Assembly (NCBI GenBank): GCA_021736135.1
Contig: JAIPGO010000025.1
Coordinates: 1-41,938 of the forward strand
Source of the DNA: Candidatus Cloacimonadota bacterium
Lineage (GTDB): Bacteria > Cloacimonadota > Cloacimonadia > Cloacimonadales > TCS61
Direction: 5' to 3'
DNA length: 41,938 bases
Shown here: positions 829-6,078 of the stretch, piece by piece
Layout of the letters: every line of letters begins with the position of its first letter
Position numbering within the stretch: the first letter of the stretch is position 1
Translations under genes and position numbers: made by a program
The notes under the pieces: generated by a model
Database searches by the model: none
The model's input: the letters and a program-made list of their open reading frames with translations, nothing else
What the model was told of the DNA's origin: nothing

Positions 829-1611
829 TCAAGTCAGGGAGAATATTTCTTCTTCAAAACCCGTATAAATATTGAACCTTTTTCCCCTGGTGAAACCGAT
901 TATATAAACCTTATATTTCCAACCCAGGTGTATGGCTTCGGAAGTTGCTGCTGATTGGGAAACAATGAGTGGAATTCCCAGGCGCACGCACTTTTTCACA
1001 ATTTCCGAGGAAATTCTGCCACTACAGAGAAGATAGTGCTCATTAAGGTTCTTTTCCTTCTGCAAAGCCATACCGGCAACTTTGTCCACTGCATTATGCC
1101 TGCCGATATCATCTGCAAAAAAAACAATTTCTTCATTATGAACCAGTCCCGCGCTGTGAACGCCTCCGGTTTGCTGAAAGAGAACCGAATTGTGCTGAAA
1201 CTGTTGCATCAGTTGCAAAACACTATCAAGGTCAATCTTAAACGGAGGAAATGCTTCCCTGCTTCCGGTCAAAGCAGAAGTCAAACTTGATCCGCAGCCT
1301 GAGGTTTTTTCACCTGTCTGGAAAAAATTGCTCAGCCTGGCAGACGGGATCTGCAGTTCAAAGTTGATGGAATAATCCTCCTGAGAAAAAGTACTGGATA
1401 TAATCTCTTTCATATGCAGCACCAGCCCTTCCGAAAGCAGAAATCCCAGTGCAAGCGCTGTTAGGTTTTCCGGCAGACAGGCCATAGCTGTCAATCGCTG
1501 TCCGTTGATGTATATAGTGAAGGAGATTTCCCTGATCACCACATCTGTAAGCATCTCGAAAATACCATTCTTGTATCTTTTTATTTCTTTAAGCAACCTT
1601 AAATCATCCAT
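829..1611 (-). CDS. fdhD: FdhD-type sulfurtransferase for formate dehydrogenase maturation
   Basis: FdhD passes sulfur from a cysteine desulfurase to the molybdenum/tungsten bis-MGD cofactor of formate dehydrogenases in the cytoplasm. The 260-residue protein has the family length and landmarks in order: LTALALGFLLSEG near residues 50-62, the loop cysteine in SGCGSS (C106), GGVHSAGL, DDIGRHNAVDKV, SGRISSEIV, the SQSAATSEA segment and a C-terminal GFTRGKRFNIYT. The E. coli enzyme has a CxxC pair in the loop; here the second position is Ser109, so a single cysteine remains. The start at 1611 has a GAGAGGA ribosome-binding site just upstream. It is divergent from the hydrogenase operon, which suggests related anaerobic formate/H2 metabolism, but no formate dehydrogenase gene lies in this window. 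Confidence 0.93.
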   Translation of the reverse strand: MDDLRLLKEIKRYKNGIFEMLTDVVIREISFTIYINGQRLTAMACLPENLTALALGFLLSEGLVLHMKEIISSTFSQEDYSINFELQIPSARLSNFFQTGEKTSGCGSSLTSALTGSREAFPPFKIDLDSVLQLMQQFQHNSVLFQQTGGVHSAGLVHNEEIVFFADDIGRHNAVDKVAGMALQKEKNLNEHYLLCSGRISSEIVKKCVRLGIPLIVSQSAATSEAIHLGWKYKVYIIGFTRGKRFNIYTGFEEEIFSLT

Positions 1612-1878
1612 ATTTTCCTCTCAATAGTGACAATCCAAATGAAGACGATATATTAGGCAATAATAAAAATGTGCTATTTACACTCTTTATCTATTTTTTT
1701 GCTTGTCAGCATATGGCTCCTTTTGCTTTTGGATTGAAAGATTGTGCCTGAAATAGAGAAAATTATCTCTACGATGAAATAGTTTTCAACTGTTCCCGGT
1801 AGTATGGAAACCAGGCTACCCCGACTCTGGGGTGAAATTTTTTATTTTAGTATATTAAAAAATAGATCAGGAGAATTT

Positions 1879-2247
1879 ATGAAGACACTGGCAGAATTGA
1901 GGATGATTAGAGAAAAGGCGCAGGAAGAGATGAAGCTGCGAGAGAGCAATTACTTGTTTAAAGTAGTTGTTGGTATGGGTACTTCCGGTATCGCCATGGG
2001 GTCCCGGGAAGTAATGAAAGCTATTCTGGAAGAGATTGCTCAGCGTGGCATCAAAAATGTGCTGGTCACCCAGACCGGTGAGAAAGGACTTTCCTCTCTG
2101 GAACCGGTGGTTGATGTGATTGAAGAAGGCAAACCCACAATTACTTATGGCAACATGGATATCGCCAAAGCCCGTAAAATGGTGGCAGAACACCTGGTAA
2201 ACGGTAAAGTTGTTAATGAATATGTGGTTTCAACAGAAAATTTATAA
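1879..2247 (+). CDS. hndB: HndB-like thioredoxin-fold subunit without cysteines
   Basis: This 122-residue protein resembles HndB, the small thioredoxin-like [2Fe-2S] subunit of NADP-reducing/bifurcating [FeFe]-hydrogenases. It shows an N-terminal helix (MKTLAELRMIREKAQEEM), then VVVGMGTSGIAMGSREV, VLVTQTGEKGLSSLEPVVDV, TYGNMDIAKAR and a VNGKVV end. In usual members the G-T-C-G-I and T-G-C-x-G-L-C motifs carry the cluster ligands. Here these positions are Ser36, Glu68 and Ser72, and the whole protein has no cysteine, so it should not bind an Fe-S cluster. A longer reading from 1804 is possible, but AGGAG at 1869-1873 sits correctly before the ATG at 1879. It is the first gene of the hydrogenase operon, 22 bp before the NuoE-like gene. 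A structural or regulatory role in the complex is inferred. Confidence 0.85.
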   Translation: MKTLAELRMIREKAQEEMKLRESNYLFKVVVGMGTSGIAMGSREVMKAILEEIAQRGIKNVLVTQTGEKGLSSLEPVVDVIEEGKPTITYGNMDIAKARKMVAEHLVNGKVVNEYVVSTENL

Positions 2248-2269: not shown

Positions 2270-2728
2270 ATGTACGAAGAGATATTTAAAAAATATACTC
2301 CGGAAAAGGAAAACCTCATTTACATACTGCACGAAATCCAGGATACGCACCCGCAACAGTATATCTCGGAAGAGGCAGTAGAGTGGGTGGCTGAATATCT
2401 TCAAATTGAGCCTTCCCACATTTTTGGCGTTTTAACTTTTTACACGATGTTCAGCACTAAACCCCGCGGTAAAAATATAATCCGACTCTGCGAGTCGCCC
2501 CCCTGTTTTCTGCGGGGCTCGGAAAAGATGCTGAAAAGGCTGGCACAGCTTCTCAAGGTGAAAGCAGGTGAAACAACTTCCGATGGTTTATTTACTCTGG
2601 AATTATGCGCCTGTCTGGGCGTTTGCGGTAATGCACCGGTTATGATGATCAATGAAGACGTGTATGGCGATCTTACGGAAGAGAAACTGGATAAAATCAT
2701 TGCCTCATATACAGGAGGTGAAAAATGA
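2270..2728 (+). CDS. hndA: NuoE-like [2Fe-2S] subunit of trimeric/tetrameric hydrogenase (HndA/HydC)
   Basis: This 152-residue NuoE-family subunit carries one [2Fe-2S] cluster for electron transfer between the flavin subunit and the rest of the complex. The four expected ligands are present: C74-x4-C79 in LCESPPC and C115-x3-C119 in CLGVC, followed by NAPVMMINEDVYGDLT, typical of the family. An extra Cys113 precedes the second pair. The helical N-terminal part (residues 1-65) includes EPSHIFGVLTFYTMF, the usual contact helix. The ribosome-binding site AAAGGAAG precedes the ATG. Its stop overlaps the start of the next gene (ATGA), which implies translational coupling with the NuoF-like subunit. 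It is an equivalent of Thermotoga HydC. Confidence 0.93.
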   Translation: MYEEIFKKYTPEKENLIYILHEIQDTHPQQYISEEAVEWVAEYLQIEPSHIFGVLTFYTMFSTKPRGKNIIRLCESPPCFLRGSEKMLKRLAQLLKVKAGETTSDGLFTLELCACLGVCGNAPVMMINEDVYGDLTEEKLDKIIASYTGGEK

Positions 2729-4284
2729 AATTCTATCGCAGTCACATATTAATAGGCATTGATGATTCGTCACTGGCAGCCGGTGTAAAAGAAATTGAAG
2801 CATTGCTGCGCAGCGAACTCCAGAAGAATAACCTGAGTGATGAGATCAATATACTGGAAACCGGAACTCTTGGTTTATTCGGAACCGGCGTGAGTATGAC
2901 GGTATTTCCCGAACAGGTAACGTATGTGAACCTTACGGCTGCTGATGTTCCCGAAATAGTCAGTGAGCATTTTCTGAAAGGACGCCCCGTCACCAGATTA
3001 GCCTTGAAAGCGCCTTTAAAGAAACATTATGATTATAATTATAAAAACCGTATCGTGCTTGCCAATAGCGGTAAGATCAATCCGGAAGATATTAAGGATT
3101 ACCTGGCAGCCGGCGGATATGAAGCCTGGGAAAAAGCTTTATTAATTATGCAGCCCGGTGAAGTTGTGGATGAAGTGAAAGCTTCGGGTCTGCGCGGTCG
3201 CGGCGGTGCCGGTTTTCCCACTGGACTTAAATGGTCATTTACCGCTCCCATTAAAGCAGAACAGAAACTTTTTGTGATCAATGCCGACGAAGGTGAACCG
3301 GGTACTTTTAAAGACCGTCTCATCATGGAAGGTGACCCGCACAAATTGCTGGAAGGTATTATGATCGGTTCTTATGCAGTGGGGGCGACTAAAGCTTATA
3401 TTTATATCCGTGGTGAATATAAACTCTGTATTCACCGCCTGGAAATTGCCATTAAAGATGCTTATGAATATGGGCTTCTGGGGAACAATATTTTTGACAG
3501 TGGCTTTGATCTGGATATCTATATCAAGATCGGCGCTGGAGCTTATGTGTGCGGTGAAGAAACTGCGCTCATCGAGTCAATGGAAGGAAATCGTGGCAAT
3601 CCGCGCTCAAAACCGCCATTCCCGGGAGTACAGGGTGCCTGGCAGTTGCCCACCGTGGTCAATAATGTGGAAACTATTGCGAATGTGCCCGCAATTATAA
3701 CCAATGGCAGCGAATGGTATAAAGGCTATGGTCCTGATGGCTGCAGTGGCACCAAGGTATTCACGATTATGGGAGATGTGAACCTTCCCGGTCTCTGTGA
3801 AGTGGATATGGGAACGTCATTAAGAACTATTATTGATGAATTCGGCGGAGGCGTTAAAGAGGGACATCAGTTCAAGGCTGCCCTGGTTGGCGGCGCTGCT
3901 GGTGTTTTTCTGCCTATAGAACGCCTGGATGTGAACATGGATTATAACAGTCTCAGAAATTACGCGGCTGTGCTGGGTTCCGGCGCCATTCTCGTGATGG
4001 ATGAGCGTGCCGACATCGTGGATATGCTTTATTCAGTTATCCGCTTCTTCCGTCATGAATCCTGTGGTAAATGTTCACCCTGCGCTAATGGCAATGAAAT
4101 GCTTTATAAACTGATCAGTAAAATCAGAAAAGGTAAAGGAGCCCCGGAAGACCTTTATAATATGGACAAGGTCGCCGAAGCAATGTTCCATTCTTCTTTC
4201 TGCGCTCTGGGTCAAAGTCTGGTTATGCCTATCAGAAGCGCTATTGAGCATTTTAAAGCTGATTTTTTAAAAAGAATTAATTAA
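2725..4284 (+). CDS. hndC: NuoF-like FMN/NAD(P)-binding hydrogenase subunit (HndC/HydB)
   Basis: This 519-residue flavoprotein subunit would bind FMN, NAD(P)H and a [4Fe-4S] cluster. Residues 1-95 form a thioredoxin-like domain, but the cysteines seen in HydB/HndC are missing: the T-G-C-x-G-x-C motif reads TGTLGLF, and the first 140 residues have no cysteine. The flavin core is intact: GLRGRGGAGFPTGLKW (155-170), INADEGEPGTFKDR (185-198), GAGAYVCGEETALIESMEG (270-288) and the TVVNNVET segment. Cluster ligands are C447, C450 and C453 in ESCGKCSPC, and C493 in FCALGQ. The protein ends soon after (residue 519), without the C-terminal two-cluster ferredoxin domain of Thermotoga HydB. A four-base overlap with the gene before and a 21-bp gap to hydA place it firmly in the operon. 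Confidence 0.94.
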   Translation: MKFYRSHILIGIDDSSLAAGVKEIEALLRSELQKNNLSDEINILETGTLGLFGTGVSMTVFPEQVTYVNLTAADVPEIVSEHFLKGRPVTRLALKAPLKKHYDYNYKNRIVLANSGKINPEDIKDYLAAGGYEAWEKALLIMQPGEVVDEVKASGLRGRGGAGFPTGLKWSFTAPIKAEQKLFVINADEGEPGTFKDRLIMEGDPHKLLEGIMIGSYAVGATKAYIYIRGEYKLCIHRLEIAIKDAYEYGLLGNNIFDSGFDLDIYIKIGAGAYVCGEETALIESMEGNRGNPRSKPPFPGVQGAWQLPTVVNNVETIANVPAIITNGSEWYKGYGPDGCSGTKVFTIMGDVNLPGLCEVDMGTSLRTIIDEFGGGVKEGHQFKAALVGGAAGVFLPIERLDVNMDYNSLRNYAAVLGSGAILVMDERADIVDMLYSVIRFFRHESCGKCSPCANGNEMLYKLISKIRKGKGAPEDLYNMDKVAEAMFHSSFCALGQSLVMPIRSAIEHFKADFLKRIN

Positions 4285-4305: not shown

Positions 4306-6078
4306 ATGTCAAAGATGATTAATCTTACTGTTGATGGTATTGAAGTTCAGGTTCCCGAAGGAACAGCGATCATCTCCGCAGCTAAGAAAGCGGGTAAAAA
4401 TATCCCTACTTTGTGCTATCATCCCGACTTGCCAGCAACGGCAAACTGCGGCGTATGCGTAGTGGAAATTGAAAAATCTCCCCTCAAGCGCGCCTGCTGC
4501 ACTCCCGTCTGGGAAGGTATGAATGTTACCACAAACAGCCATAAACTGCGTGAGTTAAGAAAAACTCTTGTTGAACTTACCCTGAGCAATCATGATGTAG
4601 TCTGCCCCACCTGCGTGCAGAACGGAAAATGCGAACTGCAGGACCTGGCATATCACCTGGGTATTCAAGCCTCGGATCTGCCTTCACTGCTTGAGAAAAA
4701 ACCCATAGATTACAGTAGCCCATCCATCGTGCGTGACCCCAATAAGTGTATCAACTGCGGACGCTGTATCACCGTTTGTGCTCAGACCCAGACGGTTTTC
4801 GCGCTGACTCTGGATGGTCGTGGATTCGAGACTATGGTCACAACGTCCTTTGATCGCGGAATGGCGAACAGTCCCTGCGTTAATTGCGGTCAGTGCACTG
4901 TATATTGTCCAGTGGGTGCCTTGCGTGAACAGACACATATTGACAGCGTCTGGGATGCACTTTTAGATCCTGATAAATATGTGATCGTGCAGGAAGCCCC
5001 GGCAGTGCGCGCCACCCTGGGTGAAGAATTTGGGATGAATCCCGAAGAAGTAACTGTCGGAAAAATGTATGCCGCTCTGCGTAGTATGGGCTTTGACCGT
5101 GTGTTTGACACTAATTTTACAGCCGATCTCACGATTATGGAAGAAGGAATGGAGCTGATCAACCGCGTTGTGACCGGAGGCAAACTTCCGGTAATTACAT
5201 CATGTTCCCCCGGCTGGATCAAATTCATGGAAACCTATTTCCCCTGCGTAGCAGAGAATGTATCCACTTGTAAATCTCCCCAGCAGATGTTTGGCACTAT
5301 GATCAAGACTTATTTTGCTGAAAAAGAAGGTATTGATCCCTCTAAGATAGTCAGCGTTTCCATTATGCCCTGCACTGCAAAAAAGTTCGAAGCCCAGCGT
5401 CCTGAAATGCGCGACAGCGGTTTTCAGGATGTGGATTACGTGCTCACAACCCGTGAACTTATCCGCATGATTGAAGAAGCAGGCTTAGATTTCAAAAACC
5501 TTCCCGATGAAAAAGCCGATAACCTCATGGGTGAATATACAGGAGCAGCCACGATCTTTGGCGCTACCGGCGGCGTGATGGAAGCTGCCGTGCGTACTGC
5601 CTATTTTGTGCTTGCCGGTAAAGAAATGGCCGATCTGAACCTTACACCCTTCCGCGGTATGGCTGGTATCAAGGAAGCCAATCTCGTGGTTCCCTTAAAA
5701 GACGGCGGTGAACTGCCCCTCCATGTGGCAGTTGCTCATGGTCTGGGAAATGCCCGTAAACTTATGGAAAGAGTCGTTGCCGGTGAAGTATTCCATTTCA
5801 TTGAGATCATGGCTTGCCCAGGCGGATGCGTTGGTGGCGGTGGTCAGCCTTTCGGCAGCAGTATTGCCGACCGTGCCCGTCGTGGACAGAGCCTTTATAA
5901 AGAAGATGCAGCGGCAGTGAAGCGTACTTCTCACTCCAATTCGGAAGTGATGAAAGCTTATGCGGATTTCCTGGGTGAACCAAATTCACATAAGGCACAC
6001 CAGCTTCTGCATACCAATTATTTCGAACGCAGCAAGGTAACCGGTGATTGCGTGAAAGCAGTAACTCACAAACATTGA
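4306..6078 (+). CDS. hndD: Catalytic [FeFe]-hydrogenase subunit (HndD/HydA)
   Basis: This 590-residue catalytic subunit makes or consumes H2 at the H-cluster. Its domains in order are: a plant-type [2Fe-2S] domain (C37, C48, C51 and C64 or C65), the His-Cys [4Fe-4S] motif H96-x3-C100-x2-C103-x5-C109, and two ferredoxin-type [4Fe-4S] motifs (C148-C158 and C191-C201 regions). The H-cluster domain follows, with L1 TSCSPGW (298-304), L2 IMPCTAKKFE (353-362) and L3 EIMACPGGCVGGGGQP near residues 502-517. L1 has Ser301 where the common TSCCPxW has its second cysteine. The modular layout matches soluble HydA/HndD enzymes of electron-bifurcating type; bifurcation itself is inferred. AUGGAGGAA gives a good ribosome-binding site. 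It is the last gene of the operon and is followed by a strong terminator. The maturases HydEFG are not in the window. Confidence 0.95.
   Translation: MSKMINLTVDGIEVQVPEGTAIISAAKKAGKNIPTLCYHPDLPATANCGVCVVEIEKSPLKRACCTPVWEGMNVTTNSHKLRELRKTLVELTLSNHDVVCPTCVQNGKCELQDLAYHLGIQASDLPSLLEKKPIDYSSPSIVRDPNKCINCGRCITVCAQTQTVFALTLDGRGFETMVTTSFDRGMANSPCVNCGQCTVYCPVGALREQTHIDSVWDALLDPDKYVIVQEAPAVRATLGEEFGMNPEEVTVGKMYAALRSMGFDRVFDTNFTADLTIMEEGMELINRVVTGGKLPVITSCSPGWIKFMETYFPCVAENVSTCKSPQQMFGTMIKTYFAEKEGIDPSKIVSVSIMPCTAKKFEAQRPEMRDSGFQDVDYVLTTRELIRMIEEAGLDFKNLPDEKADNLMGEYTGAATIFGATGGVMEAAVRTAYFVLAGKEMADLNLTPFRGMAGIKEANLVVPLKDGGELPLHVAVAHGLGNARKLMERVVAGEVFHFIEIMACPGGCVGGGGQPFGSSIADRARRGQSLYKEDAAAVKRTSHSNSEVMKAYADFLGEPNSHKAHQLLHTNYFERSKVTGDCVKAVTHKH

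Follow-up and report, generated by a model that had tools for sequence, protein, structure and literature searches.

Published relatives of HndB belong to multi-subunit hydrogenases. The Hnd enzyme of Solidesulfovibrio (Desulfovibrio) fructosivorans is reported as tetrameric, with HndB as its fourth subunit (PMC10084766, PMC7820892), and this subunit is described as probably lacking any redox centre (PMC10084766). The [FeFe] hydrogenase of Acetobacterium woodii contains an extra subunit of about 15 kDa, HydD, described as apparently having no cofactor site (PMC3315566, PMC6288185); its operon also includes hydE, for whose histidine-kinase-like product a part in assembly or in signalling has been proposed (PMC3315566). 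For the NiFe enzyme of A. mobile, HydD is reported to be missing from the purified five-subunit complex, with a role in maturation or regulation assumed (PMC8880783), and not to be part of the holoenzyme (PMC9304861). A cofactor-free HndB/HydD is already in print, and a non-redox HndB is not in itself new (PMC10084766, PMC3315566, PMC6288185).

A homologous domain forms the N-terminus of the diaphorase subunit HydB, where it is reported to stabilize the C-terminal domain of HydC (PMC8880783). What the B5-type [2Fe-2S] branch of bifurcating hydrogenases does is a matter of dispute, the B5 cluster of HydB being regarded either as a dead end (PMC8880783) or as part of a gate (PMC11406978). A HydB sub-type without B5 and B3/B4 has been described from Hydrogenedentota (Zheng and Huang 2024; PMC11406978).

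The hndB locus of a Cloacimonadota genome

The gene considered here lies near one end of a contig from a Candidatus Cloacimonadota bacterium, of which 41,938 nucleotides (the window) were analysed. An original prediction, made from the sequence alone, held that its product is a HndB-like hydrogenase subunit of conserved thioredoxin-like fold that has lost every iron-sulfur ligand, and that selection seems to maintain it for a non-redox role. The features concerned are as follows.

829..1611, minus strand: fdhD, formate dehydrogenase accessory sulfurtransferase, divergent neighbour (PF02634 and TIGR00129)
1869..1875, plus strand: probable ribosome-binding site ahead of hndB, AGGAGAA, read in the sequence
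1879..2247, plus strand: hndB, 122 amino acids, no cysteine, cluster-free thioredoxin-like subunit (translation, alignment, tree and model)
2270..2728, plus strand: hndA, NuoE/HydC-like thioredoxin-like [2Fe-2S] subunit with its ligand cysteines present (Pfam PF01257, 175.6 bits)
2725..4284, plus strand: hndC, NuoF/HydB-like FMN/NAD(H) subunit of the short, non-bifurcating type (profile matches and motifs)
2725..3009, plus strand: N-terminal part of HndC (residues 1-95), a thioredoxin-like domain in which other residues (G11, S16, T48 and F52) stand at all four [2Fe-2S] ligand positions
4306..6078, plus strand: hndD, H-cluster subunit of a group A6 NADH-dependent [FeFe] hydrogenase (NCBIfam NF040763, 825.7 bits, cut-off 765)

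The order HndB-HndA-HndC-HndD confirms hndB as the first gene of a hydrogenase operon, with hndA beginning 22 bases past its end. HndD falls in NCBIfam group A6, in keeping with a non-bifurcating NADH-dependent [FeFe] hydrogenase. The very start of the contig (window 1-343) is occupied by a tandem array of a 61-base unit, in 5.5 copies with 97% matches.

Ligand positions and fold

Translation and an alignment of 149 non-redundant HndB sequences bear out the absence of cysteine. Residues S36 (codon 1984-1986), E68 (2080-2082) and S72 (2092-2094) occupy the exact columns that hold cysteine in 92 of the 149, and no cysteine was found elsewhere in the protein, the additional residues of a longer in-frame start at 1804 included. 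Read from its sequence, HndB cannot bind the usual cysteine-ligated [2Fe-2S] cluster.

Family assignment depends on similarity and context. HndB matches no Pfam family at E 0.001, and matches the NCBIfam 2Fe-2S ferredoxin model NF041612 weakly (30.2 bits against a cut-off of 150). It is 45-87% identical to the other 12 sequences in alignment A1 and about 31-57% identical to cysteine-bearing HndB. Full-length similarity and a position beside HndA-, HndC- and HndD-type genes place it in the HndB/HydD family, although it lacks the three cysteines (36, 68 and 72) usual in the HndB compared here; the triad is doubtful as a family-defining trait because the published HndB and HydD are termed cofactor-free. 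A cysteine-bearing homologue carries the automatic name '(2Fe-2S) ferredoxin domain-containing protein', and ligands need to be checked before clusters are counted from such names.

The structures closest to an AlphaFold2 model built with 55 natural sequences as input (pLDDT 88.6) are the thioredoxin-like domains at the N-terminus of bifurcating diaphorase subunits (9bp5_B, Z 17.9, 1.6 A over 94 residues) and the [2Fe-2S] ferredoxin of Aquifex, likewise thioredoxin-like (1m2a_B, Z 16.6, 1.1 A over 91 residues). By sequence, the best PDB chains were portions of NuoF-type subunits, 584 to 602 residues long, and none of the chains found was named as a free-standing HndB. The conserved fold of the original prediction is thus supported by model and structural matches: HndB has the fold of a thioredoxin-like [2Fe-2S] ferredoxin without its cysteine ligands, and the fold is predicted to be intact, with solely the ligands gone.

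Distribution and history of the cysteine loss

HndB sequences were counted after removal of near-duplicates at 85%, with fused ORFs of at least 330 amino acids and cores below 95 amino acids dropped; the loci were hand-picked from match lists, and the shares given are not population frequencies. All three cysteines (CCC) are present in 92 of the 149 non-redundant sequences and none in 56; the remaining one, at locus L039, reads SCC, contains a stop inside the match and looks disrupted in this region. In this division into 92 and 56 the three cysteines behave as one unit, present or absent together.

Within the phylum, 101 of 114 genomes match HndB, matches to HndC domains included. The 60 loci picked among these matches and the window contain 61 HndB, of which 48 lack all three cysteines, 12 are CCC and one is that of L039. 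The closest named records are from Candidatus Cloacimonadota (e.g. Candidatus Stygibacter frigidus, 82%). Record titles place the cysteine-less motif beyond the phylum in Bacillota/Firmicutes, Mcinerneyibacteriota and Aminicenantes, and further in Deltaproteobacteria/Syntrophorhabdaceae, Spirochaetales and Hydrothermota. HndB matches occur in 225 of the 299 genomes around L166, the Firmicutes record; a Bacillota sample of the 30 best matches and 40 chosen further down the list, minus two fused, gave 68 free-standing HndB, 67 of them CCC, the exception being the starting genome L166 itself. That most HndB of this sample keep three cysteines rules out a family that never carried ligands. A plasmid search yielded only two homologues, both with three cysteines. 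In the Spirochaete sample (L338-L341), cysteine-less HndB occurs in HndA-HndB-HndC operons of the bifurcating type, with no HndD within the stretch examined.

The genome of the window encodes two further HndB copies, 87% and 73% identical and with identical cysteine-less motifs; these three copies, together with the clade described below, rule out a recent or single-genome loss. A sequencing or frame error as the cause of the missing cysteines is next to impossible: nothing in the window gene suggests one, disruption is apparent in one relative, at L039, and the recurrence of the motif in dozens of genomes and in all three copies refutes it.

A tree of HndB was built with the three cysteine columns excluded; it rests on 118 columns, has many open forks and was left without an inferred root. 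The hndB of the window falls in a clade of 52 (51 cysteine-less sequences and L039; support 96) that unites Cloacimonadota with other phyla. Mapping the presence or absence of cysteine on this tree takes five changes, at least three of them forced by starred branches, and other cysteine-less HndB (L276 and L277; L306, L319 and L321) therefore arose separately. On the sequences compared, the clade of the window represents an old loss of all three ligands that extends clade-wide across several phyla. The cysteine-bearing state is probably the older, since it occurs in several separate parts of the tree as well as in the HydB domain homologous to HndB. The predicted ligand loss is accordingly real relative to most HndB but not peculiar to this gene or genome, and the cysteine-less motif is shared with related genomes.

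Constraint on the former ligand loop

Compared with nine relatives, hndB shows dN of 0.073-0.223 and, in the five of nine pairs with computable dS, dN/dS of 0.048-0.094, similar in magnitude to the values for HndA, HndC and HndD. Since dS is near saturation and the values are rough, they indicate strong constraint rather than its exact size. In the clade of the window (n=50, with L049, L276, one L277 copy, L306, L319, L321 and L039 omitted), Q65, G67, E68 and G70 of the former ligand loop are invariant (50/50), position 69 is Lys in 46 and Arg in four, and S73 is kept in 49, whereas the 92 CCC sequences mostly have Ile, Ala or Met at position 69. On this alignment, the loop is recast into an invariant Glu followed by Lys or Arg, which is no mere drift. 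The conservation points to a non-redox role under selection, as originally proposed, although HndB and HydD had previously been published as proteins that probably carry no cofactor.

The same alignment bears on whether a cluster might still be held through the oxygen ligands Ser36, Glu68 and Ser72. Serine stands at two of the three cysteine positions, and among the best fold matches are structures of two Aquifex ferredoxin variants, Cys55Ser and Cys59Ser, which keep their cluster. Those ligands would all be weak oxygen ligands in a protein with no cysteine, and alanine occurs at position 36 in three of 50 clade members and at position 72 in eight, which makes retention of a cluster very unlikely indeed.

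Paired loss in non-bifurcating HndC

HndB is not the sole subunit of this operon to have lost a [2Fe-2S] site; the loss originally noted for HndB is real and has a counterpart in the N-terminal domain of HndC. According to Losey 2020, non-bifurcating enzymes are recognized by Thr/Ser and Lys/Ser/Ala in the NADH-site motif, by the absence of GGPSG and by the absence of a C-terminal [4Fe-4S] domain, and the list given there already includes Candidatus Cloacimonas (PMC7311640). HndC of the window has PGTFKDR, equated with T. maritima HydB 232 and 234 by an assignment made here, has GGAAG instead of GGPSG, and lacks a C-terminal 2x[4Fe-4S] domain (no CxxCxxCxxxC); it thus agrees with the non-bifurcating type in residues and domains. 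A further mark of the type is Tyr at the position of T. maritima HydB 367; the candidate motif, placed without reference to that numbering, reads EWY in the window and EWF in the relatives L058, L060 and L068.

In a tree of HndC built without the N-terminal domain, the 50 non-bifurcating HndC whose domain is readable and cysteine-less all fall in one clade (support 99). Ten non-bifurcating HndC from the Bacillota sample keep their N-terminal ligands, as do most of 104 bifurcating-type HndC (all four ligands in 97, three in five, two in one and one in one). Among 60 distinct loci with both HndB and non-bifurcating HndC (HndC2), after L367 was dropped as a duplicate of L159, both proteins are cysteine-less at 45, both cysteine-bearing at 10 and mixed at one, with four unreadable (L038, L049, L078 and L175), so that the states agree at 55 of 56 readable loci. 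The mixed locus, L336, has two HndB genes, one CCC and one cysteine-less, and a non-bifurcating HndC with a cysteine-less N-terminal domain. At 67 loci with bifurcating HndC only within the stretch examined, some of them on short contigs, HndB is CCC at 41, cysteine-less at 25 and SCC at one; the agreement therefore concerns non-bifurcating HndC. Because each loss is about one event on its own tree, these figures represent one correlated change and a partial second case rather than many independent ones. At L042:3864-5747, a bifurcating-type HndC carries a HndB-like N-terminal domain that is cysteine-less at the triad (MSTSGIAAGA ... AQTGEKGLQ), which suggests that HndB and the HndC N-terminal domain can substitute for each other.

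Cysteine-less HndC N-terminal domains vary at the replaced positions, position 52 being F, T, S, M, V, Q, I or E. Such variation is expected of a dead site and would suit a HndB that is likewise a relic under weak constraint, hitch-hiking in the operon. HndB itself combines low dN/dS with invariant residues and a clade-specific charged pair, and has been duplicated with its module; its survival as a relic is very unlikely.

HndB as part of the NADH module

Gene neighbourhoods link HndB to the NADH module. Non-bifurcating HndC genes (64 in all) lie directly behind HndB-HndA in 41 cases, behind bifurcating HndC-HndA in 20 and in another order in three; in the 20 modules where bifurcating HndC-HndA precedes HndC2, HndB, if present, sits further upstream. 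On another contig of the same genome, C133 (L056), a paralogous HndB-HndA-HndC is followed by formate dehydrogenase, a FocA-like ORF and a MobA-like ORF, all three named by eye rather than by family search, and L058 and L064 have the HndB module and formate dehydrogenase arranged in the same way. The formate dehydrogenase gene of C133 (L056:5269-7959) contains an in-frame TGA within VDHCARL-TGA-HSSTVAGLA, which probably encodes selenocysteine, by analogy with a known motif. As this paralogous module precedes formate dehydrogenase, HndB belongs with the NADH (diaphorase) module and not solely with the hydrogenase. In many genomes (L072, L092, L095 and L157-L174), a bifurcating-type and a non-bifurcating-type HndC share an operon that has just one full HndD, as though the hydrogenase came with a choice of two NADH modules.

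The C30 copy in this genome adjoins an ORF resembling a histidine-kinase-type ATPase (named by eye), as HydD is accompanied by hydE in A. woodii (PMC3315566). This neighbour, and the absence of HydD from the purified five-subunit enzyme and holoenzyme of A. mobile (PMC8880783, PMC9304861), favour the main rival reading, in which HndB serves maturation, assembly or regulation without being part of the finished enzyme. Against it, HndB of S. fructosivorans and HydD of A. woodii are described as subunits (PMC10084766, PMC7820892, PMC6288185), and hndB stands directly ahead of HndA-HndC2 in the 41 modules counted above. A role outside the enzyme is a real though minor possibility.

Proposed role

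HndB is probably a structural or gating subunit, free of any cluster, in the NADH module HndA-HndC that feeds the [FeFe] hydrogenase; its presence in the complex, the docking of the HndA [2Fe-2S] domain and the absence of iron are parts of this reading that we infer. Acting as a protein-protein element without electron transfer, HndB would keep the mobile [2Fe-2S] domain of HndA in place against HndC or gate it, as has been described for the N-terminus of HydB, a homologous domain. Weighing against this reading are the absence of HydD from the purified A. mobile complex, the near-single event behind the agreement of HndB and HndC, and the cysteine-less HndB beside bifurcating HndC at 25 of 67 loci. 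With the N-terminal domain of HndC also cluster-free, the side branch of [2Fe-2S] centres would be gone, which would fit a non-bifurcating NADH-H2 enzyme.

A bolder extension, speculative and fairly unlikely, treats HndB and the N-terminal domain of non-bifurcating HndC as a matched pair of dead [2Fe-2S] domains. The double loss and the Glu-Lys/Arg loop would have made a docking surface of what had been a side branch for electrons, and one HndD (or formate dehydrogenase) would thus be served by a non-bifurcating NADH module, in many genomes beside a bifurcating HndC, so that the system could pick between NADH alone and NADH with ferredoxin.

A clade that lacks both the HndC cluster and the HndB triad while both folds stay strongly constrained separates structural from redox roles, and provides test enzymes for the B5-type branch.

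Comparison with known systems

A literature search of the main text of openly accessible papers returned no account of HndB and the N-terminal domain of HndC losing their ligands together, nor of a clade-level, all-or-none cysteine loss or an invariant Glu-Lys/Arg loop in HndB. The clade structure of cysteine-less HndB, the loop and the coupling to ligand loss in HndC are what is new here, and the paralogous HndB-HndA-HndC set ahead of formate dehydrogenase is a further addition.

HndB of S. fructosivorans shares the family name and the partners HndA, HndC and HndD with the protein of the window, as judged by description rather than by sequence; its enzyme is bifurcating, whereas HndC of the window is of the non-bifurcating type. 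The A. woodii operon with hydE resembles the C30 copy, a likeness of gene order and published description only, and its [FeFe] hydrogenase is again bifurcating, unlike the type of HndC in the window. The ferredoxin of Aquifex aeolicus has the same fold as HndB but binds its [2Fe-2S] cluster through cysteines that HndB lacks. In the cryo-EM account of StnABC, a single [2Fe-2S] centre, B2, is placed in StnB, and that account offers no support for a cluster in the 3-Cys domain (PMC10482914). FdsB of the NAD-dependent formate dehydrogenase of Rhodobacter capsulatus is described as having an N-terminal domain that shares this fold but binds no cluster; like HndC of the window, it is a non-bifurcating NuoF-like protein with a cluster-free thioredoxin-like domain, but the account of it describes no separate HndB (PMC7171172). 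Operons of the Losey non-bifurcating type in the Bacillota sample retain three cysteines in HndB and four in the N-terminal domain of HndC in 10 of 10 cases, whereas the window has lost both sets.
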